64,000 bases of DNA from Streptomyces halobius (lineage in GTDB: Bacteria > Actinomycetota > Actinomycetes > Streptomycetales > Streptomycetaceae). A program made the translations under genes and the position numbers. Shown piece after piece: positions 37,520-64,000 of this stretch. Location of the stretch: the NCBI RefSeq assembly GCF_023277745.1, contig NZ_CP086322.1, positions 8,866,001 to 8,930,000 on the forward strand, given 5' to 3'. Position 1 is the first letter of the stretch. Every line of letters begins with the position of its first letter. The notes beneath the pieces are model-generated. The model ran no database searches and was not told the origin of the DNA. It saw only the letters and a list, made by a program, of their open reading frames with translations.

Positions 37520-38404
37520 GTGAAGGGCATCGTTCTGGCCGGTGGATCCGGAGCCAGGCTGTATCCGATTACCCGCGCGGTATCCAAGCAACTGCTTCCC
37601 GTCGGCGGAAAGCCGATGATCTACTATCCGCTGTCGATTCTCATGCTCGCGGGCATCAGGGACGTCCTCGTCATCGCGACGCCCCACGACCTGCCGCGTT
37701 TTCGCACTCTGCTCGGCGACGGGTCCCAGCTCGGGACAAACATCAGCTATGCGGAGCAGTTCCAGCCGGCCGGCATCGCCGAGGCCCTGCTCATCGGCGC
37801 CGATCACATCGGCACGGACCCGGTCGCGCTGATCCTGGGCGACAACATCTTCCACGGCCCCCGCTTCTCCGACGTGCTGGCCCAGGAGTCTCAGGACGTA
37901 CAGGGCTGTGTGCTGTTCGGCTACCCGGTGCACGACCCGCAGCGGTACGGGGTCGGCGAGGTCGACGCCGACGGCAGGCTTGTCTCCATCGAGGAGAAGC
38001 CCGCACGGCCGCGGTCCGACCGCGCCATCACGGGCCTCTATTTCTACGACAACCGAGCGGTCAACATCGCCAAGAACATCACGCCGTCAGCCCGGGGAGA
38101 ACTGGAGATCACCGATGTGAACCGGTTCTACGTCGAGCAGGGCGAGGCCAGGCTCGTCGACCTGGGCCGCGGTTTCGCCTGGCTCGACACGGGCACACCG
38201 GAATCCCTGCTCCAGGCCAGTCAGTACGTGGGGACGCTGGAGGAACGCCAGGGATGCCGTATCGCGTGCATCGAGGAGGTCGCGCTGCGGATGGGTTTCA
38301 TCGACGCCGCAGCGTGCCACCGGCTGGGCGAGGAGATCGGCGGGTCGAGTTACGGGCAGTACGTCATGTCCATCGCCGAGGAGGTGAAGGAGGTGAAGGC
38401 CTGA
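37520..38404 (+). CDS. rmlA: glucose-1-phosphate thymidylyltransferase
   Basis: A 294-aa protein, normal length, from a GTG with GGGGGTGAG upstream. The nucleotidyl-transfer motif GIVLAGGSGARLYPITRAVSKQLLPVGGKPMIYYPL is complete. LILGDNIFHG (metal site), EEKPARPRSDRAITGLYFYD and the terminal-domain LDTGTPESLLQASQYV are canonical. It makes dTDP-glucose, the first step for all deoxysugars of the cluster. The next enzymes (4,6-dehydratase, 2,3-dehydratase, epimerase) are not in the window. Confidence 0.95.
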   Translation: MKGIVLAGGSGARLYPITRAVSKQLLPVGGKPMIYYPLSILMLAGIRDVLVIATPHDLPRFRTLLGDGSQLGTNISYAEQFQPAGIAEALLIGADHIGTDPVALILGDNIFHGPRFSDVLAQESQDVQGCVLFGYPVHDPQRYGVGEVDADGRLVSIEEKPARPRSDRAITGLYFYDNRAVNIAKNITPSARGELEITDVNRFYVEQGEARLVDLGRGFAWLDTGTPESLLQASQYVGTLEERQGCRIACIEEVALRMGFIDAAACHRLGEEIGGSSYGQYVMSIAEEVKEVKA

Positions 38405-38420
38405 GGGGTCGAGGGGCTGA

Positions 38421-39434
38421 TCAGACCGTGACGATTCTGGCGACCTTCCGGACGTCCTCGACCAGCCGTGCCTGGAGCAGCGATTCGGCTTCGCAGACGG
38501 GACCGCCCCCGCCGGTGAGGACGGTGGCGGTGAACGCGGCCAGCGCATTGCGCACCTGATGGTCCGCGGGCATCGCCAGCTCGGTAAGCCGGTCCTGCTT
38601 CTGGAGCCGTACCACCGGCTTCAGCTGCTCCGGCGGGGTGTACGCGCGCTCCACCGAGATCCTCCCCTCGCCGCCCCACAGCGCGTAGCGCGACCGGTAC
38701 GAGTGCCGGAAGCCGAACTCAAGCTGCGCCGCGACGCCGTCGGGGGCGCACAGCAGGGCCGTACCCGACACGTCCACCCCGGTCGCGTCGTCCACCCGGA
38801 GGGTGGCCGCCAGCACCTCCGGCTCGCCGCACAGATACATCTGCGCCGTCCGCAGCGGATAGACGCCGACATCCAGCAGTGCGCCGCCGCCGAGCGAGGA
38901 GGCGTACCGGAATCCCGTGGGATCCAGAGGCGGTACGCCGAACGAACCGGACAGCACCTCCAGCTCGCCGATGGCACCCGCGTCGACGAGCGAGCGGACC
39001 TCGGCGTGCTGGGAATGGTGCAGGAACATGAAGTTCTCAGCGAGGATCCGGCGGTGCCGTCGCGCCAGCTCCATCAGCTCGGCAGCCTCCGCGTGGGTCG
39101 TGCACAGCGGCTTCTCGCACAGCACGTGCTTGCCCGCCCGCAGGGCCTCGGCCACCTGCTCGAAGTGGAGCGCAGGCGGGAGGGGGACGTACACCGCGTC
39201 GACGTCGTCCCGCTCCAGCAGCGTCCGGTAGCCCTTGACGCCGGCACATCCGAACCGGGCCGCCACCCGCTCTGCCTTCGCGGCGTCCCGGCTGGCCACC
39301 GCGACGAGCTCGGCCGCATCGGCCGCCGCGATGGCCGGGAGCATCCGGCGCAGCGCGATGTCCGCGCAGCCGAGCACGCCCATGCGAACCCGGCCTTCCG
39401 CGGCGCCGTCCCGCCCGATGGGGACAGAACTCAC
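38421..39434 (-). CDS. Gfo/Idh/MocA oxidoreductase, probable NDP-hexose 3-ketoreductase
   Basis: A 337-aa protein from the GTG that overlaps the aminotransferase stop (GTGA). The Rossmann motif is [20 protein letters not shown] and the family EKP motif is in [19 protein letters not shown]. This subfamily reduces the 3-keto group after C-2 deoxygenation of NDP-sugars. It suits a 2-deoxysugar branch that keeps the 3-hydroxyl, parallel to the 3-amino branch made by its operon neighbour. It is the last gene of a minus-strand operon and converges on rmlA with only 16 bases between the stops. Confidence 0.85.
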
Positions 39435-40540
39435 AGCGTCGCCAGGACGTCGTGGAGTGCGCCGATGACCTTGTCCTGCACCGCCGGGTCCAGCGAGGGG
39501 TACATGGGCAGCGAGAAGATCTCGTCGGCCGCCGTCTCGGTGACCGGCAGGGACCCCTTGGCGTATCCGAGGTGGGAGAAGCCCGTCATGGTGTGGACCG
39601 GCCACGGGTAGCTGATGTTCAGCGAGATGTCGTAGCTCTTCAGTGCCTCGATGACGGCGTCGCGCCGCGGATGGCGTACCACGTAGACGTAGTAGACGTG
39701 GTCGTTGCCCGGCGCTATCGACGGCAGCACCAGATCGGTGTCGGCGAGCCCCTCGGCGTAGCGCCGCGCCACCGCACGCCGGCCCTCGACGTACGCGTCG
39801 AGCCTGCGCAGCTTGCGGCGCAGGATCTCCGCGTGCAGCTCGTCCAGGCGGCTGTTGTGCCCCGGCGTCTGGACGACGTAGTAGCGCTCCGCCATGCCGT
39901 AGTACCGCAGCCGCCGAAGACCGGCGTCCACCTTGGGGTCCGAGGTGATGACGGCGCCGCCGTCGCCGTAAGCCCCGAGCACCTTGGTTGGGTAGAAGGA
40001 GAACCCGGCCGCGGCCCCCCACGTGCCGGCGAGCTGTCCGTCGCGGCGGGCGCCGTGGGCCTGTGCGCAGTCCTCGAAGACCAGCAGACCGTGCGCGTCC
40101 GCGACGGCCTGCAACGCCGTCATGTCGACGCACTGGCCGTACAGATGCACCGGGAGCAGACACTTGGTGCGCGGAGTGACGGCGGCGGCCACCTGCTCGA
40201 TGTCCATCAGGTATGTGTCGGGGTGGACATCGACGAAGACGGGCGTTGCCCCCATGGAGTCGATGGCCACCACGGTCGGTGCCGCGGTGTTCGAGACGGT
40301 GATCACCTCGTCGCCCGGACCCACGCTGATCGCCTGGAGCCCCAGCTTGATCGCGTTGGTGCCGTTGTCGACCCCCACCGCGTGCCCCACCCCGTGGTAG
40401 GCGGCGAACTCCTCCTCGAAGCCGCGTCCGCTGGCACCGAGCACGAGCTGTCCGGACCGCAGCACGGTCTCGATCGCGTCGTGGATGTCGTCCCGCTCGG
40501 TCTCGTACTCGCGCAGGTAGTCCCATACGTACGTGGTCAT
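39431..40540 (-). CDS. DegT/DnrJ/EryC1-family sugar 3-aminotransferase
   Basis: A 369-aa protein. The start at ATG 40540 ([19 protein letters not shown]) is chosen from homology to DnrJ-like proteins; ATG 40573 would add 11 residues, and neither has a strong ribosome-binding site. Motifs: [44 protein letters not shown] with the PLP lysine. DnrJ installs the 3-amino group of daunosamine. It supplies the amino sugar that the N-methyltransferases or the nitrososynthase then modify. Confidence 0.92.
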
Positions 40541-40588
40541 GGGTGAGTCACTGTCTCCGCTCGTCTCGGGCATGTGTCTGGCCGCGTC

Positions 40589-41299
40589 TCACTGCCGTAC
40601 GCCGACGAACAGACCGCGGCCGGTCGGGTCTCCGGGGAGGAACTCGACGGTGCACCCCGCGTCGGTGAACGCCGCGAGGTACTCGTTTTTGGTGAAGAGG
40701 GTGAGCACGTCGATCTCGGTGAACTCCCTGATGCCGTGGCGGTCGCCGACCAGGAACCGCACCTCCATCCTGGTCGCGCGGCCCTGGCGGGTCGAGTGCG
40801 AGATCCGGGCCACGGTACGGCCGTTCTCCCGGCCGAGGTCACCCGCGACATAACCCTCGACATGGTCCTCGGGGAACCACCACGGCTCGATGACGAGCAC
40901 ACCACCGGGGCGCAGGTGCCGGGTCATCGACCGCACCGCGTCCCGCATGTCGGACACCGTGGCCAGATAGCCGATGGCGCAGAACATGCACACGACCGTG
41001 TCGAAGGCGTGGCCGAGGTCGAAGGCGCGCATGTCGCCGGGGTGCACGGTCACTTCCGGCAGCCGCTGATGTGCCAGCTCCCGCATGGGCTCTGCGATCT
41101 CCAGGCCCTCGGTGTGCTTGCACAGCGCCCCGAAGGTCTCCAGGTGCGCCCCGGTGCCGCAGGCCACGTCGAGCAGGGAATCCGCCTCCGGACACCGCGA
41201 CCGCACCACTTCCATGACGTAGGCGGCCTCCGCCGGCCAGTCCTTGCCCCGGCTGCGGTAGAAGATCTCGTAGACCTCCGCCAGTTCCGGTCCGTACAT
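40589..41299 (-). CDS. DesVI/TylM1-type NDP-aminosugar N-methyltransferase (copy 1)
   Basis: A 236-aa protein, ATG preceded by AGGAG. The opening MYGPELAEVYEIFYRSRGKD, the SAM motif LLDVACGTGAHLE, VVCMFCAIGYL and EPWWFPEDHVEGYVAGD match the aminosugar N,N-dimethyltransferases. It lies between the aminotransferase and cyclase genes. A clear paralogue is at 44089-44808. The two may act on different amino sugars or perform successive methylations. Confidence 0.92.
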   Translation of the reverse strand: MYGPELAEVYEIFYRSRGKDWPAEAAYVMEVVRSRCPEADSLLDVACGTGAHLETFGALCKHTEGLEIAEPMRELAHQRLPEVTVHPGDMRAFDLGHAFDTVVCMFCAIGYLATVSDMRDAVRSMTRHLRPGGVLVIEPWWFPEDHVEGYVAGDLGRENGRTVARISHSTRQGRATRMEVRFLVGDRHGIREFTEIDVLTLFTKNEYLAAFTDAGCTVEFLPGDPTGRGLFVGVRQ

Positions 41300-41335: not shown

Positions 41336-42115
41336 TCACTCGTCGACCATGGCGACTGCCCTGGTCCAGCCCGCGCCCGCACCCGCGATCTTCACGGGGA
41401 AGCACATGACGGTGAACCCGTACGGCGCGGGCAGGGCGTCGAGGTTCGCCAAGCGCTCGATCTGGCAGTACTCCCGGTCGCGGCCGGCGAAGTGGGCCGG
41501 CCACAGCACCGAACGGTCACCCGTGCGCCCGTACCGCTCGATGACGTGGGTGAACGGGGCGTCCAGGCTGAACGCGTCCGTCCCGATCACCCGCACCCCA
41601 AGGTCCAGCAGCAGATGCACGGCCGGCCCGTCCAGTCCGGCGAACTCGGTGAAGTACTCCGGGGTGCCCGCACGCGCCGAGGCACCGGTGTGCAACAGGA
41701 CGATGTCCAGCGGCGCCGGGGTGCGGCCGATCCGCTGGAACTCCTTCTCCAGCCGCTCCGCGCCGACGACACCGGTCGGTGCGTCGGTGAGGTCGAGCAC
41801 CATCCCCGGCTTGCAGAACCACTCCAGTGGCATCCGGTCGATGTGCTTCGGTACGCCGTCGCCGTATCCGGCCCGAGAGCCGTAGTGTGACGGCGCGTCG
41901 ACGTGCGTGCCGGTGTGCGAGGTCAGGGTGATCCGGTCGAGCGACAGGAACTCCCCGTCGGGCAGCTCGTCCGGGTCGAAATCGAGCCCGAAGTGCGTCC
42001 GCATCTCCGCGCTCATGTGCTCCGCCCCCTGACGCGGGGTTAGCACCTCGTGCACCACGGGATCCGGTTCATGAGCCGTGGCGTCCACCGCCGATGACAG
42101 GTCGATCAACCGCAC
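41336..42115 (-). CDS. polyketide cyclase of the DpsY/SnoaM/MtmX (kynurenine-formamidase-like) family
   Basis: A 259-aa protein. GTG 42115 is preceded by GGAGGTCCAT; a GTG at 42127 is an alternative. The metal-binding signature SHTGTHVDAPSHYG is intact, as is DIVLLHTGASARAG. In anthracycline clusters this family closes the second and third rings. It is the first gene of the four-gene minus-strand operon that also holds the N-methyltransferase, aminotransferase and 3-ketoreductase. Confidence 0.88.
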   Translation of the reverse strand: MRLIDLSSAVDATAHEPDPVVHEVLTPRQGAEHMSAEMRTHFGLDFDPDELPDGEFLSLDRITLTSHTGTHVDAPSHYGSRAGYGDGVPKHIDRMPLEWFCKPGMVLDLTDAPTGVVGAERLEKEFQRIGRTPAPLDIVLLHTGASARAGTPEYFTEFAGLDGPAVHLLLDLGVRVIGTDAFSLDAPFTHVIERYGRTGDRSVLWPAHFAGRDREYCQIERLANLDALPAPYGFTVMCFPVKIAGAGAGWTRAVAMVDE

Positions 42116-42304: not shown

Positions 42305-42748
42305 GTGGCAATGCCGATGGGAACCTCGTCGTCGGTCGAGTCCCTCTATGCCGAAGTGCAACAGTTCTATGCCCGACACATGCATCTGCTGGACGCCGGG
42401 GACGGCGAGGGCTGGGCGCTGACCTTCACCGAGGACGGCTCGTTCGCGCCGCCCTCGCTGCCGGAACCCATCGTCGGCCGGGACGCCCTGGCCACGGGGG
42501 TCAACAAGGCCGCCGCGGCGCTCGCCGAGGCCGGCGAGGTGCACAGGCATCTGCTCAGCATGGTGTGGGTCCAGCCGCGCGAGGACGGCGAGCTGAGCGT
42601 CCGTTCGTACGCGCAGATCGTCGCCACGCCCCGGGGCGGCAGCCCCAGACTCCATCTGATGTGCGTATGCGACGACGTACTTGTGCGCGTGGATGGTGAA
42701 CTGAGGGTGCGTGAACGCCGGGTCACGCGTGACGACCGGCATCCGTGA
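42305..42748 (+). CDS. SnoaL-like/NTF2-fold protein, possible dehydratase or cyclase
   Basis: A 147-aa protein; GTG 42305 follows GAGGAGGA closely, with ATGs at 42311 and 42317 as alternatives. The sequence YAEVQQFYARHMHLLDAGDGEGWALTFTEDGSF is the opening of the SnoaL_4 family, which includes ActVI-ORFA-type proteins. It is distinct from the true fourth-ring cyclase at 56751. First gene of a plus-strand unit with a 4-ketoreductase and the ACP. The reaction is not determined. Confidence 0.8.
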   Translation: MAMPMGTSSSVESLYAEVQQFYARHMHLLDAGDGEGWALTFTEDGSFAPPSLPEPIVGRDALATGVNKAAAALAEAGEVHRHLLSMVWVQPREDGELSVRSYAQIVATPRGGSPRLHLMCVCDDVLVRVDGELRVRERRVTRDDRHP

Positions 42749-42802: not shown

Positions 42803-43738
42803 GTGGTGACCTCGCGTGACGCGAGCCGGCCCGGCACGGTCGCCGTGCTGGGCGCGACCGGCGGCATCGGACGACAGGTGAGCGCGGTGTTCTCGCGCGC
42901 GGGACACGAGGTGCTCGGTGTGGCCCGGCGTCCCGCGCCGCACGCCGCCGGCCGGGCCTTCGTCCCGCTGGACGTGGCATCGGCGGAGCCACCGGAGATC
43001 GCCGAACTCCTCGCCTCGCGGAACGTGGGGGTCGTGGTCAACGCCACGGGCGGCTGGGCGGTGACGGAGGGGGCGATGCACCACGCCCATGTGCGGCTGG
43101 TGGACCATGTGCTCGCCGGAGTCGCCGCGCTGCCCACGCGCCCGCGCGTCATCCACGTCGGCAGCATCCACGAGTACGGCTTCGTACCGCCCGGCACCGG
43201 CATCGACGAGTCGGTGGCGCCGGATCCGAGCACTCCGTACGCCCGTACGAAACTGGCCGGCTCGCAGGCCGTGCTGGCGGCGGCCCGCGCCGGGGACGTC
43301 GACGGGGTCGTGCTGCGCGCGGTCAATGTGTGCGGGCCCCATCCGTCGGCGGCGAGCTTCCTGGGCGCCGTGCTGCACCGGCTCCGCGGGGTGACGCCGG
43401 GGGAGCGGCTGGAACTGATGATCGCGGACGCCGCCCGCGACTACATCGACGTACGCGACGTCGCCTCGGCGGTCCTGCGGGCCGCGGACGCGGCGGCCCC
43501 CGGCGCGGTGTTCAACATCGGGCGCGGTGCGGCGCCGACGATGCGCGAGCTGGTGGCGACCCTGGTCGAGGTAGCCGGATTCCCGCCCGAGACGATCAAG
43601 GAGACCGGCGGGCCGGTGGAGAGCAAGGGCGGTGGTTGGACCAAGGCCGACATCCGTCACGCGGAACGGGCGCTGGGCTGGCGCCCGGTCATCGGTCTGC
43701 GCGACTCCCTGCGCGACATGTGGGAGGCGGCGGGCTGA
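42803..43738 (+). CDS. NAD-dependent epimerase/dehydratase family, probable NDP-hexose 4-ketoreductase
   Basis: A 311-aa extended short-chain dehydrogenase. The nucleotide motif is VAVLGATGGIGRQV; VIHVGSIHEYG and the Tyr-x3-Lys pair in PYARTKLAGSQAVL form the active site. GTG starts at 42803 and 42806 follow AAGGGGG. This type reduces the 4-keto group in the last step of deoxysugar formation. A second such protein is encoded at 52045. Confidence 0.85.
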   Translation: MVTSRDASRPGTVAVLGATGGIGRQVSAVFSRAGHEVLGVARRPAPHAAGRAFVPLDVASAEPPEIAELLASRNVGVVVNATGGWAVTEGAMHHAHVRLVDHVLAGVAALPTRPRVIHVGSIHEYGFVPPGTGIDESVAPDPSTPYARTKLAGSQAVLAAARAGDVDGVVLRAVNVCGPHPSAASFLGAVLHRLRGVTPGERLELMIADAARDYIDVRDVASAVLRAADAAAPGAVFNIGRGAAPTMRELVATLVEVAGFPPETIKETGGPVESKGGGWTKADIRHAERALGWRPVIGLRDSLRDMWEAAG

Positions 43739-43804: not shown

Positions 43805-44062
43805 ATGAGTGAACTCACCCTGCCGGTCCTGGTCGAGATCATCCGGGAGTGCGCCGGTGAGGCGGACGGAGTCGATCTAAACGGCGAGGGCGTCGGTGAC
43901 GTCGAGCTGAATGTCCTCGGGTACGACTCGCTCGCCCTGTTGGAGGCGATCAGCCAGGTCGAACGGAGGTACTCGATCGGCATGCCGGATGCGGAGACCC
44001 GGATCCGGACGCTGAACCAGTTCCTCGATCAGGCCAACGAGCAACTGGCCCGGCGGCCCTGA
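43805..44062 (+). CDS. type II PKS acyl carrier protein
   Basis: An 85-aa protein with a GTG alternative at 43802; AGAGG lies upstream. The phosphopantetheine site is LGYDSLALLE with Ser42, the standard position. The acidic helix composition is typical. Usually the ACP follows KS-beta directly, but here it is about 15 kb from the ketosynthase genes, between sugar genes. Confidence 0.93.
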   Translation: MSELTLPVLVEIIRECAGEADGVDLNGEGVGDVELNVLGYDSLALLEAISQVERRYSIGMPDAETRIRTLNQFLDQANEQLARRP

Positions 44063-44073
44063 ACCCGGCGCCC

Positions 44074-44106
44074 GTCCGGTCCGCCGGGTCAGCCGGCGGA
44101 CCGGAC
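44074..44106. terminator. perfect 14-bp bidirectional stem-loop
   Basis: GTCCGGTCCGCCGG (44074-44087) pairs base for base with 44093-44106 over a 5-base loop. It sits between the convergent ACP and N-methyltransferase genes and includes the latter's stop codon (44089-44091) in its loop. It should end transcription in both directions. Confidence 0.75.
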
Positions 44107-44808
44107 GCCGACGAAGAGGCCACGGCCGGCGGGCTCGACGGGGAGGTAGTCGACGCCGAAACCGGCGGCCGTGAACGCCGCCTCGTACTGCTTCTGGGAG
44201 AACAGGCCGATCAGGTGCGTCTCATGGAAGTGACGTACCCCCGACGCACCGTCGGCGACCAGATAGTGCACATGCATCCGGGACGCCGCCCCCTCCCGTA
44301 CGGAGTGGGAGACCCGGGACACGGTCCGTTCCCCGACGGTCACCGTGCTGCCGGCGACATGGCCGTGCCGGTACGTCTCGGGGAACCACCACGGGTCGAC
44401 GGCCAGCACCCCGCCGGGCGTCAGATGCCGTGCGCACCGGCGCAGCGCGTCCACCAGCGCCGACTCCGTCAGCAGATAGCCGATCGACCCGAACATGCAG
44501 GTGATGACGTCGTATGTGCGGCCGAGGTCGAAGTCCCGCATGTCGCCGACGTGTACGGGGACACGTGGCAGCGCCGCGTGCGCGAACCGGGCCATCGGCT
44601 CGGACAGCTCCAGCCCGGCCACCTCGTCGAACAGCTCGTCGAAGCACCGCAGATGCGCCCCGGTGCCGCAGGCCACGTCGAGCAGGGTGGCGGCATCCGG
44701 CCTGCGCTTCCGCACCTGCCGCTCCACCGCGGCCGCCTCTTGGAGATAGTCCTTGCCGCGGCCGCGGTGGATCAGCTCGTAGATCTCGGCGAGTTCGGCT
44801 CCGTACAC
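44089..44808 (-). CDS. DesVI/TylM1-type NDP-aminosugar N-methyltransferase (copy 2)
   Basis: A 239-aa protein. GTG 44808 gives the family start MYGAELAEIYELIHRGRGKDY and has GAGGTC upstream. SAM motif LLDVACGTGAHLRCF, ITCMFGSIGYLL, DPWWFPETYRHGHVAGS. It is clearly paralogous to the gene at 40589, keeping the end GRGLFVGVR, but with its own promoter and orientation. It probably N-methylates a second aminosugar or completes dimethylation. Confidence 0.92.
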   Translation of the reverse strand: MYGAELAEIYELIHRGRGKDYLQEAAAVERQVRKRRPDAATLLDVACGTGAHLRCFDELFDEVAGLELSEPMARFAHAALPRVPVHVGDMRDFDLGRTYDVITCMFGSIGYLLTESALVDALRRCARHLTPGGVLAVDPWWFPETYRHGHVAGSTVTVGERTVSRVSHSVREGAASRMHVHYLVADGASGVRHFHETHLIGLFSQKQYEAAFTAAGFGVDYLPVEPAGRGLFVGVRSAG

Positions 44809-47621: not shown

Positions 47622-49028
47622 ATGCGGGTCCTGTTCACCACACACACCGCGAAATCCCATCTGTTCGCGCAGGTCACGCTGGCGTGGGCGCTGCGGGCCG
47701 CCGGCCACGAGGTCCATGTGGCCGGCCAGCCCGATCTCGCCGACGACATCACCGGCACCGGCCTGACCGCCGTAACGGCCGGTGCCGCGCTCGACCTGGC
47801 GGCACAGCTGGAGTCGTACGAACAGTACGACGGGCCAGGCGGGTCCGGTGCGGCCGGTGAGTCCGGAGGGTCCGGCGCATACGCAGCTCAGGCCCCGGAA
47901 GCCTGGGACGAAGCCGGGGGCGCGGACGACTACCGTGCGATGGCCGAGCGGTTCGAGTATTGGACGGACATGACCGAGATCCGTCCGGAGAAACTGTCGT
48001 ACGAGTACATGCACGGCGTCTTCACCGCCATGACCACGCACGTCTTCCAGCAGTACTCCGCGCCGGCGATGGTCGACGACCTGGTGTGCCACGCCCGGTG
48101 GTGGCGGCCCGACCTGGTCGTCTGGGACCCGCTCACCTTCGCGGGGCCGATCGCCGCGCGGGCCAGCGGCGCGGTCCACGTCCGACTCCTGTTCGGCCTG
48201 GACCTCATCGGCCGGATGCGCGAGTCCTACCTCGACGCGGTGCGACGGCTGCCCCCGGGGCAGCGGGAGGACCCGATGGAGGAATGGCTGGGCTGGACCA
48301 TGCGGCGGTACGGCGGGGAGTTCGGCGAGGACCTCGTCGTCGGGCAGCGCACCATCGACCCGCTGCCGGGCTCCCTGCGCTTCCCGGTCGGACTGGACCG
48401 CGTGCCGATGCGGTTCGTGACCCACAACGGCAGCTCCGTCTTCCCGGACTGGCTGCGCGAGCCGCCGAAGCGCAGGCGGATCTGCCTGACGCTCGGCGTC
48501 TCGCACCGTGACCTGCTCGGCGCCGACCGGGTGCCGCTCCGGGAGGTGCTCGCGGCCGTGGCCGGAGCGGACGTCGAAGTGGTGGCCACCTTGAACAAGG
48601 CCCAGCTCGCGTCCGTCACCGAGGTGCCGGACAACATCCGCGTCATGGACTTCGTCCCGCTGGAGGCCCTGCTGCCGAGCTGCTCCGTGGTGATTCACCA
48701 CGGTGGTGCGGGCACCTTCAACACCGCGCTGAGCTGCGGGGTGCCCCAGCTGATCCTGCCCGACGGGGTGTGGGACACCGACCACAAGGCACGCCTGCTG
48801 GAGGAGCGTGGCGCCGGGCTCCGGGTCGCGGAACCGGAGCGGGCCGATGCCGGGATGCTGCGCGTCATGCTCACGCGACTGCTGGAGGAACGCTCCTTTG
48901 CCGATGCCGCCGCCCGGCTGCGCCAGGAGTCGAGGGACATGCCTGCGCCCAGCGCTGTCGTGCCGGTCCTCGAAGAGCTCGCAGAGGCCAACCGGCGCGG
49001 CGCCGGGGCGGAGCCCGTGCAGATCTGA
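47622..49028 (+). CDS. GT1-family glycosyltransferase A, with Gly-rich insertion
   Basis: A 468-aa protein with GAGGAAGGG upstream. The opening MRVLFTTHTAKSHLFAQVTLAWALRAAGHEVHVA and C-terminal HHGGAGTFNTALSCGVPQLIL nucleotide-sugar site mark macrolide/anthracycline-type transferases, the group that often requires a P450-like auxiliary protein. Between about residues 68 and 100 there is a Gly/Ser/Ala-rich insertion (GPGGSGAAGESGGSGAY) lacking in its paralogue at 62041. The donor sugar cannot be read from the sequence. Confidence 0.93.
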   Translation: MRVLFTTHTAKSHLFAQVTLAWALRAAGHEVHVAGQPDLADDITGTGLTAVTAGAALDLAAQLESYEQYDGPGGSGAAGESGGSGAYAAQAPEAWDEAGGADDYRAMAERFEYWTDMTEIRPEKLSYEYMHGVFTAMTTHVFQQYSAPAMVDDLVCHARWWRPDLVVWDPLTFAGPIAARASGAVHVRLLFGLDLIGRMRESYLDAVRRLPPGQREDPMEEWLGWTMRRYGGEFGEDLVVGQRTIDPLPGSLRFPVGLDRVPMRFVTHNGSSVFPDWLREPPKRRRICLTLGVSHRDLLGADRVPLREVLAAVAGADVEVVATLNKAQLASVTEVPDNIRVMDFVPLEALLPSCSVVIHHGGAGTFNTALSCGVPQLILPDGVWDTDHKARLLEERGAGLRVAEPERADAGMLRVMLTRLLEERSFADAAARLRQESRDMPAPSAVVPVLEELAEANRRGAGAEPVQI

Positions 49029-50732: not shown

Positions 50733-51851
50733 TCACACCAGGGACGCCAGCCGCCCGACGAGTGCGGCGGGAGACGGCATCGCCGCTGTCTCGTCGCGCA
50801 CCTCGGCCGCGGCCGTCCGCAGTCCCTCATCATCCAGCAGGGCCCGGAACTCCGCCGTCCCGACCGTCTCGGCCGCCCCCCCGATCGCGATGCCCCGCTC
50901 GATGACCGCGCGCTCGTTGTCCTTCTGGTCCGGGCTGAGCGGCATCACGCACTGGGGAACGCCCACGGCCATCGCGACCGCAGAGGTGCCCGACCCGCCG
51001 TGGTGGATCAGCCCGCGGCAGGTTCTCAGCAGCGGCCCGAGGGGGAGCCAGTCCACCGTCCATACGTTGGGGGGCAGTTCACCCAGGAGCGACGGGTCGC
51101 CGCCGCCGAGGGTGACGACGAACTCCGCGTCCGTGTCCGCCGCCGCGGTGACGAGCGGCGCCAGCACGGCCAGGCCGCCCCACAGACCGGCGATCGACCC
51201 GAGCGTGACGGCGATCCTTGGCCGCCGCGGCGGCTCCAGCAGCCAGCCGGGCAGCTCGCCGTTGCCGTTGAAGGGCACATAGCGGACCGGTACGTCGTCG
51301 TCCGCGCGCACCCGCTCCGGAAGCAGCTTCAGCAGGCTCGGCGGCATCGAGTTGAGCCGGAAGCCGGTCGCGGGCGCCGGCGTGACGCCGTGCCGCAGAT
51401 AGTGCTCCTTCATGTGGTCGCGCAGCAGACCGTCGATGCGCGGTGCGCTGTCGGCCGGCCCGGTCACCACCGACACGGCGGGCACGCCGAGCGCTCCCGC
51501 CGCCAGCGGGCCGGCACCCTGGAGCGGTGAGTGGACGATCAGATCCGTGGACCAGCCGCGGGCGACCTCCACCACCCGGTCGACGGTGACACCGGAGACC
51601 CTGGCGAAAAGCGCGGCGACGAACTCGTCCCCGCCGTCGACGCTGAAGTCGATCTCCTCGGGCCGGAACACCGTCGCGTAGTCGAGCCCGGGGGTCACAT
51701 CGACGACGTTGACGCCCGCGGCGGCCACCGCGTCGACGTCACCGCCCTGGGCGTACAGCACATCGTGACCGGCTGCGGTCAGCGCGTGCGCCAGGGGCAC
51801 GGAGGGAAAGATGTGCCCCAGCCCTGGGGAGTTGACGAACAGTACGCGCAT
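50733..51851 (-). CDS. GT1-family glycosyltransferase B
   Basis: A 372-aa protein; ATG 51851 has GAGGAG upstream. The opening MRVLFVNSPGLGHIFPSVPLAHALTAAGHDVLYA and the site IHHGGSGTSAVAMAVGVPQCVMP are typical. It is shorter and clearly different from transferases A and C, resembling enzymes that add later sugars. It reads opposite to its neighbours and shares a divergent promoter region with the ketoreductase at 52045. Confidence 0.9.
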   Translation of the reverse strand: MRVLFVNSPGLGHIFPSVPLAHALTAAGHDVLYAQGGDVDAVAAAGVNVVDVTPGLDYATVFRPEEIDFSVDGGDEFVAALFARVSGVTVDRVVEVARGWSTDLIVHSPLQGAGPLAAGALGVPAVSVVTGPADSAPRIDGLLRDHMKEHYLRHGVTPAPATGFRLNSMPPSLLKLLPERVRADDDVPVRYVPFNGNGELPGWLLEPPRRPRIAVTLGSIAGLWGGLAVLAPLVTAAADTDAEFVVTLGGGDPSLLGELPPNVWTVDWLPLGPLLRTCRGLIHHGGSGTSAVAMAVGVPQCVMPLSPDQKDNERAVIERGIAIGGAAETVGTAEFRALLDDEGLRTAAAEVRDETAAMPSPAALVGRLASLV

Positions 51852-52044: not shown

Positions 52045-52815
52045 ATGGAGATCATCGGGAACGGGTTTCTCGCACGACATCTCGCACCGCTCTCGACCGA
52101 GCACCCCAGGGCGACGGTGCTGGCCGCGGGCGTGCCCACGCACCCGCTGCCCGACGCGGAACACCAGCGTGAGACCAGGCTCGTCGACGAGACGGTCCAG
52201 CACTGTCTGCGGCGCGACCGGATGCTCGTGTTCTTCTCCACCGTCAGCATGTACGGCGGACCCGGCGGTTCGGGCGACGAGGACGGCCCGCAGGTCGCCT
52301 CCACCCGCTACGGCCAGCACAAGCTGGACCTCGAACGGCTGATCAAAGCCTCCGGGGTACGCCACCTCATCCTTCGGCTCGGCTATGTGCTGGGCCCGGA
52401 CGAACCCGGCTTCCGCCTGCTCGCCGCGCTCATCACCCAGGTGCTGGCCGGCCGGGTGCGCGTCCAGCGCGGGGCGCGCCGGGACATGGTCCACGTGGCG
52501 GACTTCACCACCGTCGTGGACGCCCTGCTCCGTACCGGGGTGTGCGACGAGACCGTGAACGTCGCCTCCGGAGACTGCGTGGAGGTCGCCACCATCGTGC
52601 GGCATCTCGAATACCGGCTCGGCGTCACGGCCCAGTGGCAGGTCACCGACGACAGCGTCAGGCACTGCCCCTCGCTACGGAAACTGCGGCGGCTGGTGCC
52701 CGAGGTCGACGGGCTGGGATTCGGGCCGGGCTATCACCGGACCGCCATCGACCGATATCTGGAGGCGACGCGCCCGGCGGCTGCCATCCGGACGGAAAGG
52801 ACGGAAAGGCCATGA
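52045..52815 (+). CDS. NAD-dependent epimerase/dehydratase-like NDP-sugar 4-ketoreductase
   Basis: A 256-aa protein, short for the family; the ribosome-binding site (AAGGG) is weak and far. The opening EIIGNGFLARHLAPL is a slightly degenerate Rossmann motif. FFSTVSMYGGPGG and TRYGQHKLDLERLI contain the catalytic Ser and Tyr-x3-Lys. ILRLGYVLGPDEPG and RDMVHVADFTTVVDALL follow. Such proteins accompany nitrososynthases in nitro-sugar clusters. Its stop overlaps the nitrososynthase start (ATGA). Confidence 0.8.
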   Translation: MEIIGNGFLARHLAPLSTEHPRATVLAAGVPTHPLPDAEHQRETRLVDETVQHCLRRDRMLVFFSTVSMYGGPGGSGDEDGPQVASTRYGQHKLDLERLIKASGVRHLILRLGYVLGPDEPGFRLLAALITQVLAGRVRVQRGARRDMVHVADFTTVVDALLRTGVCDETVNVASGDCVEVATIVRHLEYRLGVTAQWQVTDDSVRHCPSLRKLRRLVPEVDGLGFGPGYHRTAIDRYLEATRPAAAIRTERTERP

Positions 52816-54047: not shown

Positions 54048-56081
<2,034 letters not shown>

Positions 56082-57185: not shown

Positions 57186-57250
57186 CGTGTGCCTCCGGTT
57201 CTCGGTGTGCTCGTCGCCGACGAGCATCCCAACACCACGATCGGCAGCGG

Positions 57251-57414: not shown

Positions 57415-57765
57415 ATGCAGCCGAACGACCTTGATCCCACCGGGAGCGGGGTGGTCACCTTCCTCAACAGGTTCACCGTGCACGCCTCGCCGGAGGAGTT
57501 CGAGAAGGCATTCGCCGAGACCGGACGGTACCTGGCGGACCGGGACGGATTCCTGCGGTACACCCTGCACCAGCACGCCGAGGACCCGACCCGCTGGTTC
57601 AACATCGCGCACTGGCGAGACGCGCACGCCTTCCGCGCGGCGGTGGGCCAACCCTCCTTCCCACAGCACGCCGCGGCGGTACGTGAACTGAGTACCAGTG
57701 AGCCCGGCCTGTACGTCCCCCGGCAGCACGTGTCGGCGGAGCGGGCGGCTACGGAGGACCGCTGA
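57415..57765 (+). CDS. AknX/SnoaB-type anthrone monooxygenase
   Basis: A 116-aa protein. ATG 57415 has AGAGG upstream; GTG 57397 is an alternative. The ABM-domain fold ([54 protein letters not shown]) matches cofactor-free internal monooxygenases that oxidise C-12 of the anthracycline anthrone to the quinone. Its stop overlaps the KS-alpha start (TGATG). First gene of the PKS operon. Confidence 0.92.
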
Positions 57766-59045
57766 TGGCCACGCCCACCGGCCGCCGTGCCGTCATCACC
57801 GGCATCGGTGTCGTCGCTCCCAACGCCGTGGGGCGCAAGCCCTTCTGGGACGCGCTGACCGCCGGGCGCACGGCCACCAGGAGCATCAGCTTCTTCGACC
57901 CCGCCCCCTACCGCTCGCAGATCGCCGCCGAGGTCGACTTCGACCCGCTGCGCGAGGGGCTGACCCCGCAACAGGCCCGGCGGATGGACAGGGCCGCGCA
58001 GTTCGCCGTGGTGAGCGCCCGGGAGGGTCTCGCCGACAGCGGGCTGGACCACGCGGAACTGGACCCCGCGCGGACCGGTGTCACCATCGGCAGCGCCGTG
58101 GGCTGCACCATGAGCCTTGAGGACGAGTACTCCGTCGTCAGCGACGGCGGGCGCCACTGGCACGTGGACGACTCCTACGCCGGGCGGCACCTCTTCGACT
58201 ACTTCGTCCCGAGCTCGATCGCCGCCGAGGTAGCCCGCGATGTCGGCGCCGAGGGCCCCGTGTCGCTGATCTCGACCGGCTGCACCTCCGGACTGGATTC
58301 GGTCGGGCACGCGGTGGAGCTGATTCGGGAGGGATCGGCGGACGTGATGGTGGCCGGCGCCACCGACGCCCCGATCTCGCCGATCACCGTGGCCTGTTTC
58401 GACGCGATCAAGGCGACCACGCCGCGGAATGACGAGCCCGGGCGGGCGTCGCGGCCCTTCGACCGCACCAGGAACGGGTTCGTCCTCGGCGAGGGCGCCG
58501 CGGTCTTCGTCCTGGAGGAGCTCGGGCACGCCCGCCGGCGCGGCGCGCAGGTGTACGCGGAGATCAGCGGGTTCGCCTCGCGCTCCAACGCCTTCCACAT
58601 GACCGGGCTGCGCCCGGACGGCCGAGAGATGGCCGAGGCCATCCGCGTCGCGATGCAGCGGGCCATGGTCGCCCCGCAGGACATCGACTATGTCAACGCG
58701 CACGGATCGGGCACCGTACAGAACGACCGGCACGAGACGGCGGCCTTCAAGAGGGCCCTCGGCGAGGACGCCTACCGGGTGCCCGTCAGCGGCATCAAAT
58801 CGATGATCGGGCACTCTCTGGGGGCGATCGGCTCGCTGGAGATCGCGGCCTGCGCGCTCGCCATCGAACACAACACCATCCCGCCCACCGCCAATCTGCA
58901 CGAGCCCGACCCCGAATGCGACCTGGACTATGTGCCGCTGACGGCACGTGAGCAGCGCGCAGACACCGTGCTCACGGTGGGCAGCGGCTTCGGGGGCTTC
59001 CAGAGCGCGATGGTGCTGCGGAGCCCGGAGAGGGCGACGTCATGA
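57765..59045 (+). CDS. type II PKS ketosynthase alpha (KS-alpha)
   Basis: A 426-aa protein. Catalytic Cys173 in [17 protein letters not shown], histidines in [14 protein letters not shown] and [11 protein letters not shown]. The N-terminal [20 protein letters not shown] is standard. With KS-beta it extends the poly-beta-ketone chain on the ACP. It overlaps KS-beta by 4 bases. Confidence 0.97.
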
Positions 59046-60262
59046 CATCCACCGCTGTGATCACCGGTATGGGCGTGCTCGCGCCGACCGGCCTGGGCAC
59101 CGCCTCCCACTGGCGCAGCACCCTGGCCGGGCGGGCCGCGATCGGCCCGATCAGCCGCTTCGACTCGGAGCGCTACCCCAGCCGGCTGGCCGGTGAGATC
59201 GAGGGTTTCGCTCCGCAGGAGCACGGCATCCCGAACCGGCTGCTCCCGCAGACCGACCACATGACCCGGCTGGCGCTGGTGGCCGCCGAATGGGCCATCA
59301 AGGACGCCGGGGTGGAGCCCGGCGCACTGCCGGACTACGGCATCGGCGTCGTCACGGCCAGCTCGGCCGGCGGATTCGCGTTCGGCCACCGGGAACTGCA
59401 CAACCTCTGGAGCAAGGGCCCGGAGCACGTCAGCGCCTACCAGTCCTTCGCATGGTTCTACGCGGTCAACACCGGACAGATTTCCATCCGGCATGGACTG
59501 CGCGGCCCGGGCGGCGTGGTCGTCACCGAGCAGGCCGGCGGGCTGGACGCCCTGGCGAAGGCCCGGCGGCAGCTGCGCGACGACGTGCAGATGGTGATCG
59601 CGGGCGGCGTCGACGGCTCGCCGTCGCCCTGGGGCTGGGTCGCGCAGCTGGCGGGCGGCCGGATCAGCACCGTGGACGATCCCGAGCGGGCCTACCTGCC
59701 CTTCGACGCGGACGCCTCCGGCTACGTACCGGGTGAGGGCGGCGCGTTGTTCGTCCTTGAGTCCCCGGAGTCGGCACACGCCCGTGGCGTGCGGTCCTGG
59801 TACGGGGAGATCGCCGGATACGCGTCCACCTTCGACCCGCCGCCCGGGACGGGCCGGCCCGCCAACCTGCGGCGTGCCGCCGAAATCGCCCTCGAAGACG
59901 CGGGATTGGAACCCGGCGACATCGACGTGGTGTTCGCCGACGGCGCGGGCATCCCCGAACTCGACCGCGCCGAGGCGGACGCCATCCGCGAGGTCTTCGG
60001 CCCGCACGGCGTACCGGTGACCGCGCCCAAGACGATGACCGGGCGGCTCGGCGCCGGCGGCGCGGCACTCGACCTGGCGACGGCCGTGCTGTCCATCCGC
60101 GACAGCGTGATCCCGCCGACGGTGAACGTGCGGCGGCCGGTGCCCCAGTACGGGATCGACCTCGTCCGCCGCTCCCGCAACGTACCGGTGTCCGCCGCGC
60201 TCGTGCTGGCCAGGGGACACCAAGGTTTCAACGCGGCCGCGGTCGTGACCCGACAACGATGA
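59042..60262 (+). CDS. type II PKS chain-length factor (KS-beta)
   Basis: A 406-aa protein. The cysteine of KS-alpha is replaced by Gln164 in [12 protein letters not shown], the signature of chain-length factors, which decarboxylate malonyl-ACP to start synthesis and set chain length. [23 protein letters not shown] is typical. Chain length (decaketide expected for an anthracycline) is inferred from the company of SnoaL and AknX types. Confidence 0.96.
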
Positions 60263-60270
60263 GGAGAGAC

Positions 60271-61056
60271 ATGTCCACTCAAGACGACCGGCACGCCGTG
60301 GTCACCGGTGCCACCAGCGGCATCGGGCTCGCCGTCACGACGCTGCTGTGCCAGCTCGGGCAGCGCGTGTTCCTCTGCTCCCGTGACCCCGAGAACGTCG
60401 AAGTCACCGTCGCACGGCTCCGCGACAAGGGGTACGACGTCGCGGGACAGGCATGCGACGTCCGTTCCACCGAACAGGTCGGCGCCTTCGTCCGGGCCGC
60501 CGTCGACCGGTACGGCCCGGTGGACGTGCTGGTGAACAACGCGGGCCGCAGCGGGGGAGGCCACACCGCGCAGATCACCGACGAGCTGTGGCTCGACGTC
60601 ATCGACACCAACCTCAACAGCGTCCTGAGGCTCACCCGTGAGGCGCTCACCACGGGCAGCATGCTTGAGCGGGGCACCGGCCGGATCATCAACATCGCGT
60701 CGACCGGCGGCAAGCAGGGCGTGGTGCTGGGCGCCCCCTACTCCGCGTCCAAGCACGGCGTGGTCGGCTTCACCAAGGCGGTGGGCCTGGAGCTGGCCAA
60801 GACCGGCGTGACCGTGAACGCGGTCTGCCCCGGCTACGTGGAGACGCCGATGGCGCAGCGGGTGCGGAAGGGCTACGCCGCGGTCTGGGACACCACGGAA
60901 GAAGCTGTGCTGGAACGGTTCGAGGCGAAGATCCCGCTCGGCAGGTACACCACCCCGGAGGAGGTCGCCGGGCTCGTCGGCTACCTCGTCACCGACCAGG
61001 CCGCCCCCATCACGGCGCAGGCGATCAACGTCTGCGGCGGACTGGGCAATTACTGA
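60271..61056 (+). CDS. polyketide 9-ketoreductase (ActIII/AknA type)
   Basis: A 261-aa SDR; ATG 60271 has GAGGAGA upstream. AVVTGATSGIGLAVTTLL, LVNNAGRSGGG, NIASTGGKQGVVLGAPYSASKHGVVGFTKAVGLEL and NAVCPGYVETPMAQRVR are diagnostic of the C-9 reductases of type II PKS. It acts on the nascent chain together with the aromatase downstream. Confidence 0.95.
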   Translation: MSTQDDRHAVVTGATSGIGLAVTTLLCQLGQRVFLCSRDPENVEVTVARLRDKGYDVAGQACDVRSTEQVGAFVRAAVDRYGPVDVLVNNAGRSGGGHTAQITDELWLDVIDTNLNSVLRLTREALTTGSMLERGTGRIINIASTGGKQGVVLGAPYSASKHGVVGFTKAVGLELAKTGVTVNAVCPGYVETPMAQRVRKGYAAVWDTTEEAVLERFEAKIPLGRYTTPEEVAGLVGYLVTDQAAPITAQAINVCGGLGNY

Positions 61057-61087
61057 CGGCCCGCGCGAGGACCAGGAGACCCGTAGC

Positions 61088-62041
61088 ATGACGAACAATC
61101 ACCGAGCCGAGCACCGGATCACTGTGCAGGCACCTGCGCGCACCGTCTTCGGCCTGATCGCGAACATCGAAGCGTGGCCGCGGGTCTTTCCCCCGACCGT
61201 GCATGTGGACGTCCTCAAACGGACCGCAGGCGAGGAGCGCATCCGGATCTGGGCGACCGCCAACGACTCCGTCAAGACGTGGACCTCGCGCCGCGTCCTC
61301 GACTCCGAGGGCCTGCGGGTGAGCTTCCGTCAGGAGGTGTCCCAGCCGCCGGTCGCCGCCATGGGCGGCGAATGGATCATCGAGCCGTTGTCGGATTCCC
61401 GGACCCTGGTCCGCCTCACCCACGACTTCCGGGCCGTCGACGACGACCCGGAGGGTGTGGCGTGGATCAACCGGGCCGTCGACCGCAACAGCGACGCAGA
61501 ACTGGGCGCGCTCAAGCGGGCCGCGGAACCGGCTCCCGGGGCCGGAGCCGGCGATCTGTCGTTGCAGTTCGACGACGTGGTGGAGGTGGCCGGGGACCCC
61601 GCCGAGGTCTACGACTTCCTCTACGACGCACGGCAGTGGGAGAGGCGGCTGCCGCACGTGAACCGCGTGGAGCTTGCGGAGAGCACCCCGAACCTGCAAC
61701 TGCTGGAGATGGACACGCTCACCCCGAACGGCGCGGTCCACACGACGAAGTCGGTGCGGATCTGCTTCCCTGCCGGCACCATCGTCTACAAGCAGCTGAA
61801 GACACCCGCGCTGATGGCCGTCCACAACGGCCGCTGGCGCATCGAGAAGAGCCCGTCCGGGTGCACCGTCACCTCGACGCACACTGTTGTACTGAACCGC
61901 GACGCGGTCGTCCCGGTCCTCGGCGGGGGCGCCACGGTCCAGGACGCACGCACCTTCGTCCGCGACGCGCTCGGCCGCAACAGCACCGCGACGATGCTGC
62001 TTGCCAAGGAGTACGCCGAGCGAGCGGTACGGGAGCGCTGA
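61088..62041 (+). CDS. didomain aromatase/cyclase (AknE1/SnoaE/ActVII type)
   Basis: A 317-aa protein with two START/Bet v1-like halves. The first (RITVQAPARTVFGLIANIEAWPRVFPPTVH) and the second (DVVEVAGDPAEVYDFLYDARQWERRLPHVN) begin with the same pattern. Didomain enzymes close and aromatise the first ring of C-9-reduced chains, in agreement with the ketoreductase upstream. Its stop overlaps the start of the next gene (TGATG). Confidence 0.95.
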   Translation: MTNNHRAEHRITVQAPARTVFGLIANIEAWPRVFPPTVHVDVLKRTAGEERIRIWATANDSVKTWTSRRVLDSEGLRVSFRQEVSQPPVAAMGGEWIIEPLSDSRTLVRLTHDFRAVDDDPEGVAWINRAVDRNSDAELGALKRAAEPAPGAGAGDLSLQFDDVVEVAGDPAEVYDFLYDARQWERRLPHVNRVELAESTPNLQLLEMDTLTPNGAVHTTKSVRICFPAGTIVYKQLKTPALMAVHNGRWRIEKSPSGCTVTSTHTVVLNRDAVVPVLGGGATVQDARTFVRDALGRNSTATMLLAKEYAERAVRER

Positions 62042-63378
62042 TGCGCGTCCTGTTCGCCACCTTCGGCGCCCGCAATCACGTCCACGCCCAGGTGGCGCTG
62101 GCCTGGGCGCTGCGGGTCGCCGGGCACGAGGTCTGCATGGCCAGCCACCCTGACCTCGGGGACGTGATCGCCCGCACCGGCCTGACCGCGGTCCCGGTCG
62201 GCCGGGAGCTCAACGAGGACCAGGTGATGGAGGAACTGCGGGAACGCGAGGACGCCGCCCGTGACACGTACGACGAGGAGGCCCCGGACGCCCAGCTGCT
62301 GCTGACGATGGACGAACTGCGCCCGGAGAAGCTGACGTACGACCACATGCACGGCGTGTTCACCGCGATGACCTCGGCGGTCTTCCAGAACTACTCGTCG
62401 ACCGAGATGATCGACGACCTGGTGGACTTCGCCCGTGGCTGGCGGCCCGACCTGGTGGTCTGGGACCCGCTGACCTTCGCCGGGGCCGTCGCCGCCCGGG
62501 TCACCGGCGCGGCACACGCCCGGCTGATGTTCGGCCTGGACCTGGTCGGCCGCATGCGCGAGAGCTATCTCGCGGAGGTGCGGGGGCGGCCCGCCGCGCT
62601 GCGCGAGGACCCCATGCGGGAGTGGCTCGGCTGGGTGATGGAGCGTTACGGCGGCGCGTTCACCGAGGACCTGGTGACCGGCCAGTGGACCATCGACCCG
62701 GTGCCGACCTCCCTGCGGCTCCCGGTAGGTCTGCCGTATGTCCCCGTCCGCTGCGTGGCCTACAACGGCAGGGGGAGCATCCCGCCCTGGCTGCGTGAGG
62801 TGCCAGAACGCCCCCGGGTGTGCCTGACGCTCGGGGTGTCGCACCGCGAGGTGATGGGCGGTGACCAGGCGTCGATAGGCGAGCTGATCGACGCGGTCGC
62901 CGGACTGGACGTCGAGGTGGTCGCCACCCTGAACGCCCGCCAGCTGCGGGCGGTCACCAGTCTTCCCGGCAACGTCCGCACCGTCGACTTCGTCCCGATG
63001 GACGCGCTGCTGCCCAGCTGCTCGGCCGTCATCAGCCACGGCGGGTCCGGCACGGTCCACACGGCGTTCCTGTACGGCGTCCCGCAGATCCTGGTGCCCG
63101 GCACCATGTGGGACAACGGCATCCGCGCCGACCTCGTGGAACGGTCGGGCACCGGCCTGCGCCTGGACGCGGAGACCCTGACCGCCGCCGCCCTGCGCGA
63201 CGCGCTCGCCCGTGTACTGACGGAGCCGTCGTTCGTGGCCGGAGCCGACCGGCTGCGCCGGGAGACGCTGGCCACCCCGTCTCCCCGGGACATCGTCCCG
63301 GTACTGGAGTCGCTCACCGCCGAACACCGGCGCCCCGGTGCCACAAGACACAACGCCCCTGCGAGGAACGATGTCTGA
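62041..63378 (+). CDS. GT1-family glycosyltransferase C
   Basis: A 445-aa protein, close paralogue of transferase A at 47622: both share [21 protein letters not shown] sequence, [20 protein letters not shown] and [15 protein letters not shown]. The Gly-rich insertion of A is absent. The sugar-nucleotide site is [22 protein letters not shown]. Its place directly after the aromatase in the PKS operon suggests it adds the first sugar to the aglycone. That is inference. Confidence 0.93.
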
Positions 63379-64000
63379 CACGGCCTCCCCGCCCCCCGCC
63401 CCGCGGTCGGTCGTGGTGACCGGAGGCGGCTCCGGCATCGGCAGGGCCACCGCACGCGCCTTCGTCGACGAGGGCGCGGCCGTACTCGTCGTCGGCCGGA
63501 CGGCTGGTGACCTCGCCGACACGGCGCGGGGATACGACACCATCAGGACGCTCGCCGTCGACCTCACCGAGGCCGACGCGCCCCAGAAGGTCGTGGACAC
63601 CGCGCTGCGCGAGCTGGGCGGGATCGATGTCCTGGTGAACAACGCGGCGGCCCTGGGGCACCGCGCCCTCGCCGACATCGACCCAGAGCAGGTGACCGTC
63701 CAGCTCGGCACGAACCTCGCGGTGCCCGTGCTGCTCACCCGGTGCGCGCTCGACGCCCTCGCCGCCGACGGCGGCGGCACCGTGGTGAACGTCAGCTCGT
63801 CCGGTGCGCGCGGGTCCCGGGCCTGGCCGGGCAACGGTGTGTACGGCGCCGCCAAGGCCGCGCTCGACTTCCTCACCCGTACCTGGGCGGTCGAACTCGC
63901 ACCGCTCGGCATCCGGACCGTCGGCGTCGCACCCGGGCTGGTCGACTCCGGGTTCGCGGAGCGGGCGGGCATGTCGCCCGAGCAGTACGACGGCATGCTC
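63371..64000 (+). CDS. short-chain dehydrogenase/reductase, 3' end cut by the window
   Basis: 210 codons are visible. The ATG overlaps the previous stop by 8 bases and GAGGAACG precedes it. [52 protein letters not shown] (Ser, Tyr-x3-Lys) and [16 protein letters not shown] are classical SDR motifs. In anthracycline operons a reductase of this kind reduces the C-7 ketone (AknU/SnoaF), which is a likely but unproven role. Confidence 0.85.

Follow-up and report, generated by a model that had tools for sequence, protein, structure and literature searches.

A gene cluster of Streptomyces halobius predicted to build a nogalamycin-family anthracycline with a bridged amino sugar and an N-oxidised sugar

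Keyicin, arugomycin, viriplanin and decilorubicin are anthracyclines that carry nitro sugars, and tsukubarubicin is presumably an anthracycline as well. Tsukubarubicin is described as an antitumour antibiotic of Streptomyces tsukubaensis, a synonym of S. tsukubensis, that is activated by overexpression of a Streptomyces antibiotic regulatory protein (SARP) (PMC10972967, PMC11264864, PMC12095151), and the work of Wu et al. (2021) on it is listed among the references of PMC8383387. Here we describe a complete cluster of ~50 kb in Streptomyces halobius which, with a probability of about three in four, would build a nogalamycin-family anthracycline with a bridged amino sugar and an N-oxidised sugar, and whose orthologue in S. 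tsukubensis is most likely the tsukubarubicin cluster. The window, that is, the whole stretch of 64,000 nucleotides that was analysed, lies at positions 8,866,001-8,930,000 of the forward strand of NZ_CP086322.1, a single contig of 9.24 Mb, and was extended by 20 kb of left and 56 kb of right flank. Coordinates beyond 64000 continue the window numbering, and gene numbers (gNNN) come from a prediction made with a codon-usage script.

The assignment to the tsukubarubicin system is drawn from the fact that the producer, S. tsukubensis, holds close relatives of two key proteins of the locus, P0006 with 89% identity to the nitrososynthase g052 and P0123 with 86% identity to the Rieske oxygenase g046; in addition, tsukubarubicin is SARP-activated and the cluster described here ends with a SARP gene. 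The original prediction, of a distinct nitro(so)-sugar anthracycline, had set near-identity to a characterised cluster against itself, and such a counterpart was probably found, at ~86-89% protein identity rather than near 100% and for two proteins. With the nogalamycin cluster of S. nogalater, the locus shares homologues of SnoK, SnogD, the Rieske oxygenase and SnoaL, as well as a minimal polyketide synthase of the acetyl-starter type, but it also carries a nitrososynthase, a 10-decarboxylase with an esterase and an RdmE-type hydroxylase, all three of which we take to be absent from the nogalamycin cluster. Keyicin, arugomycin, viriplanin and decilorubicin had been named as the group for comparison, and homology of the gene set supports the choice: the likeness to these compounds lies in a nitro-sugar gene set joined to an anthracycline aglycone, and concerns their structures. 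A search by title and start of abstract found no paper on a cluster of such make-up, most subscription papers lying outside that search.

The cluster runs from 37520 (or 37616) to 87480 and comprises 45 genes, g037-g081, the last of which encodes the SARP regulator (85543-87480); the window holds its left ~26 kb. Apart from the transposase g068, all 44 genes were found by tblastn to be colinear in another Streptomyces genome, G229, at 78-98% identity, and g035, g036 and g082 had no tblastn match there, so the limits were placed at g037 and g081. The original prediction had confined the cluster to 37520..64000; the conserved synteny reaches 87480 and leaves about half of the cluster beyond the window. 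Every gene type that it named was found as an intact open frame, chance being excluded by the scores and by the colinearity in a second genome. At the left edge, the RmlA-type glucose-1-phosphate thymidylyltransferase g037 (37520..38404, forward strand) matched TIGR01207 with 358 bits and is 91% identical to its G229 counterpart; its start at 37520 is likely, as from the shorter start at 37616 the match begins at profile position 32.

The amino sugar is probably a nogalamycin-type bicycle, because the cluster combines a Rieske oxygenase 69% identical to a protein of S. nogalater with homologues of SnoK and SnogD. The SnoK homologue g071 (71902-72696, 7.9 kb beyond the window) matched 5epa (SnoK) with 396 bits over 259 residues, compared with 188 bits for SnoN, and the SnogD-like glycosyltransferase g050 (50733..51851, reverse strand) matched 4amb (SNOGD) with 384 bits, the next best score being 205. 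The Rieske oxygenase g046 (45017-46276, forward strand) contains the Rieske motif; its S. nogalater relative, P0129, is presumably SnoT, the nogalamycin amino-sugar hydroxylase, of which g046 would be the probable counterpart. Two N-methyltransferase-like proteins, g040 (40589-41299, reverse strand) and g045 (44089-44808, reverse strand), are 55% identical to each other and matched methyltransferase models below cut-off, their substrates being predicted. An N,N-dimethylated aminosugar had been expected from two N-methyltransferases: two methyltransferase-like genes are indeed present, and N-methylation as well as the dimethylation are predicted.

To place these genes in context, we compared 13 related loci, the window excluded. 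The loci were read over unequal lengths (21-80 kb), absence meaning little in those read short (Sswart, 21 kb; G239, 25 kb; G613 and G407, 40 kb), and three weaker SnoK matches (G275, G340 and G119; 36-42%) were left out. A g040/g045-type gene was present in 10/10 loci with SnoK and in 0/3 without it. The g046-type Rieske gene occurred in 8/10 and 0/3, respectively, missing from Sswart and from G093 (read over 60 kb), and the same counts were obtained for a g050-type transferase at identities of at least 54%. The Rieske oxygenase had been taken as a sign of a distinct member of the group; its likeness to the S. nogalater protein and its relatives in most SnoK loci speak against this.

The genes expected for an N-oxidised sugar are present, namely a nitrososynthase, a 2,3-dehydratase, a 3-aminotransferase, a 3-C-methyltransferase, an epimerase and a 4-ketoreductase, with exact substrates that are predicted. 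The nitrososynthase g052 (52812-54047, forward strand) scored 462 bits with 3mxl, 444 bits with 3m9v/4kcf, which we take to be KijD3, and 426 bits with DnmZ (4zxv). The sugar 3-C-methyltransferase g047 (46355-47572, forward strand; PF08421/PF08484) is of the type of TcaB9, presumably of the tetronitrose pathway of tetrocarcin, with 638 bits to 5t64 and 631 bits to TcaB9 (3ndi). The aminotransferase g039 (39431-40540, reverse strand) matched sugar aminotransferase models below cut-off and has homologues of 70-94% identity in 11 of the 13 loci. Beyond the window, the 2,3-dehydratase g080 (82960-84417, reverse strand) contains two PF03559 domains, and the epimerase g079 (82250-82864) reached 151 bits with the RmlC model, just under the cut-off of 155.75. 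Probable ketoreductases are also encoded: the Gfo/Idh/MocA oxidoreductase g038 (38421..39383, reverse strand; PF01408) would act at C-3, and the short-chain dehydrogenase/reductase (SDR) proteins g043, of the NAD-epimerase/dehydratase type (42803..43738, forward strand; PF01370), and g051, a short one (52045..52815, forward strand; PF01370), at C-4. Concerning the sugar of decilonitrose type that had been proposed, homology supports the genes for an N-oxidised 3-C-methyl-3-amino sugar, and the presence of a nitro(so) sugar in the product is predicted from them.

In daunorubicin/baumycin biosynthesis, oxidation by DnmZ is followed by opening of the nitroso sugar. A similar fate in S. halobius, which would give a product with neither a nitro nor a nitroso sugar, is suggested by the place of DnmZ among the solved relatives of g052 and by the RdmE/DnrF-type gene and the UvrA-like gene, which recall the daunorubicin cluster. 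We consider it quite unlikely, given that the closest solved relative of g052 is 3mxl and not DnmZ.

A different question concerns the AknOx-like oxidase g049 (49075-50694, forward strand), a flavin adenine dinucleotide (FAD) enzyme with AknOx as its closest solved relative (2ipi, 607 bits). Its N terminus carries RRGFL, a motif like that of twin-arginine translocation (Tat) signals, and it contains SGGHC and GAC stretches that we take for the sites of the two FAD-linking residues. An AknOx-like gene was found in 11 of the 13 related loci with nitrososynthase, including G407, in whose 40 kb no ketosynthase resembling those of anthracyclines was found, so that the exported oxidase might complete the nitro sugar by converting nitroso to nitro instead of oxidising a sugar hydroxyl. 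As a control, we used 392 genomes of the genus, 26 of which have SnoaL over the family cut-off, and searched for AknOx-like proteins at E<=1e-110, taking the three best candidates per genome. An AknOx-like gene lay within 40 kb of SnoaL in 6/6 SnoaL genomes with a nitrososynthase, but also in 15/20 without one; in the other five, the match of G128 is ~68 kb away, that of G329 has no position given, and G250, G206 and G315 have no listed match. Nitrososynthase genomes lacking SnoaL (G193, G360, G309, G011 and G142) fell outside this control, and in G011 no AknOx-like gene was found over 60 kb. Since the gene is common with or without a nitrososynthase, it goes with anthracyclines generally and does not mark nitro-sugar clusters. 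These counts, together with the relationship of g049 to AknOx itself, led us to reject the nitroso-to-nitro role, which we regard as highly improbable.

The same control bears on the suggestion that the mix of a Rieske oxygenase and a Tat-exported oxidase betrays a distinct, undescribed member of the arugomycin, viriplanin, decilorubicin and keyicin group, with a new structure owed to these two enzymes. The nitrososynthase, the TcaB9-type methyltransferase and the two N-methyltransferase-like genes are all present, as such a member would need, and SnoK and the Rieske gene were found together with TamK- and RdmE-type genes in only one of the 13 loci, G229, four loci having been read over 21-40 kb. 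Neither enzyme, however, could be retained as the mark of a new chemotype, the Rieske oxygenase being common to S. nogalater and AknOx-like genes being usual beside SnoaL. Furthermore, the ketosynthase g058 has homologues of 91-92% identity in a further seven protein clusters, each with a Streptomyces name (among the best 120 of 7587 matches), and the nitrososynthase has relatives of 82-91% in ten, one of them from S. tsukubensis. A distinct member thus appears unlikely, and the nogalamycin-family product of tsukubarubicin type is preferred.

The anthracycline class itself was borne out by homology, a ketosynthase, chain length factor, acyl carrier protein, ketoreductase and aromatase occurring together with a fourth-ring cyclase of the SnoaL/AknH type. 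The ketosynthase alpha g058 (57765..59045, forward strand) is followed by the chain length factor g059 (59042..60262, forward strand; ketosynthase-type models), the ketoreductase g060 (60271..61056, forward strand; 93% identity to G229) and the aromatase/cyclase g061 (61088..62041, forward strand; PF10604 and PF03364, two stretches each). The acyl carrier protein g044 (43805..44062, forward strand) matched weak models below cut-off, contains the stretch LGYDSL and is 91% identical to G229. The list is extended by the anthraquinol monooxygenase g057, AknX-like with an ABM domain (57415-57765, forward strand; PF03992), the SDR g063, a probable 7-ketoreductase that crosses the window end at 64000 (63371..64144, forward strand), and g041 (41336..42115, reverse strand; PF04199), a probable second/third-ring cyclase whose role we presume from cyclases of the DpsY/SnoaM type. 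The SnoaL-fold protein g042 (42311..42748, forward strand; PF13577) has Aln2 as its closest solved relative; an assignment as SnoaL2 was dropped, as SnoaL2 is absent from its matches.

The fourth-ring methyl ester cyclase g056 (56751-57227, reverse strand) scored 271 bits with NF033407 (cut-off 200). It matched SnoaL (1sjw) with 251 bits and AknH (2f98) with 231 bits, a slight tilt towards the 9(S) series, tied in PMC9764417 to SnoaL and to Kyc34, the SnoaL-like cyclase of keyicin. Beyond the window, the methyltransferase g077 (78514-79374, reverse strand) is probably a carboxyl methyltransferase of the SnoaC type, because its type was found in the compared loci only alongside g056, with the exception of Sswart and of a partial match (36%) in G613. 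Among the 45 genes, none was recognisable as a ketosynthase III or an acyltransferase (g078 scanned over the first 120 of its 767 residues), which fits an acetyl starter and a nogalamycinone-type aglycone; PMC9764417 assigns acetyl-CoA to Snoa123 and propionyl-CoA to AknBCDE2F and DpsABCDG. The hydroxylase g070 (70217-71821, beyond the window) is RdmE-like, with 806 bits for NF046069 (cut-off 700), and also passes the DnrF model (692 bits, cut-off 650).

At C-10, the locus departs from what had been expected of an RdmB-like gene. The protein g053 (54068-55120, forward strand) is present, but it shares 307 of 349 residues (88%) with TamK (7pg7) and bears the signature of a 10-decarboxylase, not of a 10-hydroxylase: it has both the region R1 Tyr and the Ala-Pro pair which, according to PMC9976750, mark 10-decarboxylases, and the RdmB-type region R1 was not found in it, that of TamK standing in its place. 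The signature Tyr is residue 318 in the 7pg7 chain and 309 in the 7phd chain, compared with Y308 (TamK) and Y299 (DnrK TDDD) in that paper (PMC9976750), a constant offset of 10 residues that we took for a tag. Loss of the C-10 carboxyl rather than 10-hydroxylation is therefore predicted from the TamK identity and the signature. The neighbouring g054 (55188-56081, forward strand) is an alpha/beta hydrolase whose best models, below cut-off, are macrolide esterases, and which would act as an RdmC-type 15-methylesterase; the g053 and g054 types occurred together in 5/5 of the 13 loci having either. With g053 and g070, the locus resembles systems with TamK/EamK 10-decarboxylases and RdmE/DnrF hydroxylases, but here, unlike there, these steps are combined with a nogalamine module.

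Five glycosyltransferases were recognised. Four of them scored above the TIGR04516 cut-off of 440 bits, namely g048 (47622..49028, forward strand; 539 bits) and g062 (62041..63378, forward strand; 612 bits), both activator-dependent, and, beyond the window, g069 (68718-70049, reverse strand) and g073 (73900-75183); the SnogD-like g050 fell below. Two P450-like proteins, g064 (64211-65497) and g072 (72712-73872), both beyond the window, would serve as activators, and the heme-Cys motif was absent from both when searched for.

Taken together, these genes outline, by homology, a proposed pathway. An acetyl-started C20 polyketide would be reduced, cyclised, oxidised, methyl-esterified and closed by g056, after which the RdmC-type esterase g054 would cut the ester, g053 would decarboxylate C-10 without hydroxylating it, and g070 would add the 11-hydroxyl. 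A deoxythymidine diphosphate (dTDP)-3-amino sugar, N,N-dimethylated by g040 and g045, would be attached by the SnogD-like transferase, hydroxylated by g046 and, through SnoK, bridged with the ring to form the nogalamine-type bicycle. A second amino sugar would receive a 3-C-methyl group from the TcaB9-type enzyme, and the nitrososynthase would convert it to its nitroso form, which may end as nitro and would join a chain made by the four further transferases with the two P450-like helpers. The exported AknOx-like oxidase probably acts late, on a terminal sugar.

The distribution of the genes was examined more widely. The nitrososynthase was detected at E<=1e-90 in 11/392 genomes of the genus, the one of the window included, and in 4/394 genomes class-wide, two of which (that of the window and G360) were already in the genus set. 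SnoK at more than 50% identity was found in 9/11 nitrososynthase genomes, and every one of the nine genomes that have SnoK at this level carries the nitrososynthase. The ten further protein clusters related to g052 include names such as S. erythrochromogenes, S. tsukubensis, Streptomyces sp. WMMC940 and several NPDC strains, the next match having 73%; a scan of genome contigs gave two loci, one in S. swartbergensis (73%) and one with a distant protein from Dehalococcoidia (31%), and the nitrososynthase had no match among 72,556 plasmid records. The combination of SnoK, Rieske oxygenase, nitrososynthase, TamK and RdmE types, present among the compared loci in the orthologous G229 only, marks this cluster family. 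Five genomes, G193, G360, G309, G011 and G142, have the nitrososynthase, SnoK, the Rieske gene and a related minimal polyketide synthase; their aglycone is probably closed another way, because SnoaL, the g077-type methyltransferase and TamK/RdmC-type genes were not found in the 58-80 kb read. The G407 locus represents a nitrososynthase locus of another family, with an AknOx-like gene of 46%.

Several points weigh against the proposed product and its orthology with tsukubarubicin. The orthology is drawn from two S. tsukubensis proteins, and the best 120 of the 7587 matches of g058 include no named S. tsukubensis ketosynthase, the protein cluster of g058 itself, P0239, having 6 nameless members. 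The bicycle requires a C-1 hydroxylation, the SnoaW/SnoaL2 step, for which no clear genes were recognised, g042 matching Aln2, and G093 combines SnoK and a nitrososynthase with no Rieske gene in 60 kb. The preference of g056 for SnoaL over AknH is too small to fix the C-9 configuration, and the product as a whole is predicted from genes.

Between the esterase and the fourth-ring cyclase lies g055 (56103-56723, reverse strand), an Rv2466c-like protein of the mycothiol-dependent nitroreductase family (PF22234, 215 bits; 5xur, 214 bits). Genes like it occur in 6/13 related loci, and a second full-length Rv2466c-type copy (271 bits) lies elsewhere in the S. halobius genome. That g055 acts on the N-oxidised sugar is speculation. 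Such a role would belong to a reading in which the product is an undescribed hybrid unlike tsukubarubicin, where a nogalamycinone core, 10-decarboxylated and 11-hydroxylated, bears a dimethylamino sugar that is hydroxylated and C-C bridged, together with a nitro(so)-sugar chain, and g055 acts on the nitroso or nitro sugar, and this we judge very unlikely.

The remaining cluster genes, all beyond the window, include an ABC transporter (65607-67438), RmlB (77394-78404, reverse strand) and the UvrA-like g078 (79640-81943). An IS481-type transposase/integrase, g068 (67902-68624, reverse strand), lies between the regulator g067 and the glycosyltransferase g069 and is absent from the colinear G229 cluster. 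Directly left of the cluster, a Pgl/BREX phage-defence operon (16312-34602, reverse strand) encodes PglW (30229-34602), PglX (26481-30245), BrxC/PglY (22555-26484), PglZ (19766-22555), BrxD (18441-19769) and BrxHI (16312-18444), all on the reverse strand, and seems to form a full type 2 system.

The anthracycline class and the sugar modules of the locus are well supported by homology, and the product is predicted from them. As the tsukubarubicin-producing species has close relatives of two key proteins, the cluster appears to be a good representative of an established kind and not the first of a new kind, and if S. tsukubensis carries the same gene set, as these two proteins suggest, the product is already known. 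If g055 did act in a hybrid product as described above, mycothiol chemistry would be linked to the handling of nitro sugars. The locus unites, intact, three tailoring modules, the SnoK/SnogD/Rieske bicycle, the nitrososynthase sugar and the TamK/RdmE changes of the aglycone, with close relatives in several Streptomyces, and it offers an enzyme set for combinatorial anthracycline work together with a testable product prediction for such clusters. With SnoK in 9 of the 11 nitrososynthase genomes, the genes for nitro sugars and for the nogalamycin bridge seem to be frequent companions within Streptomyces.

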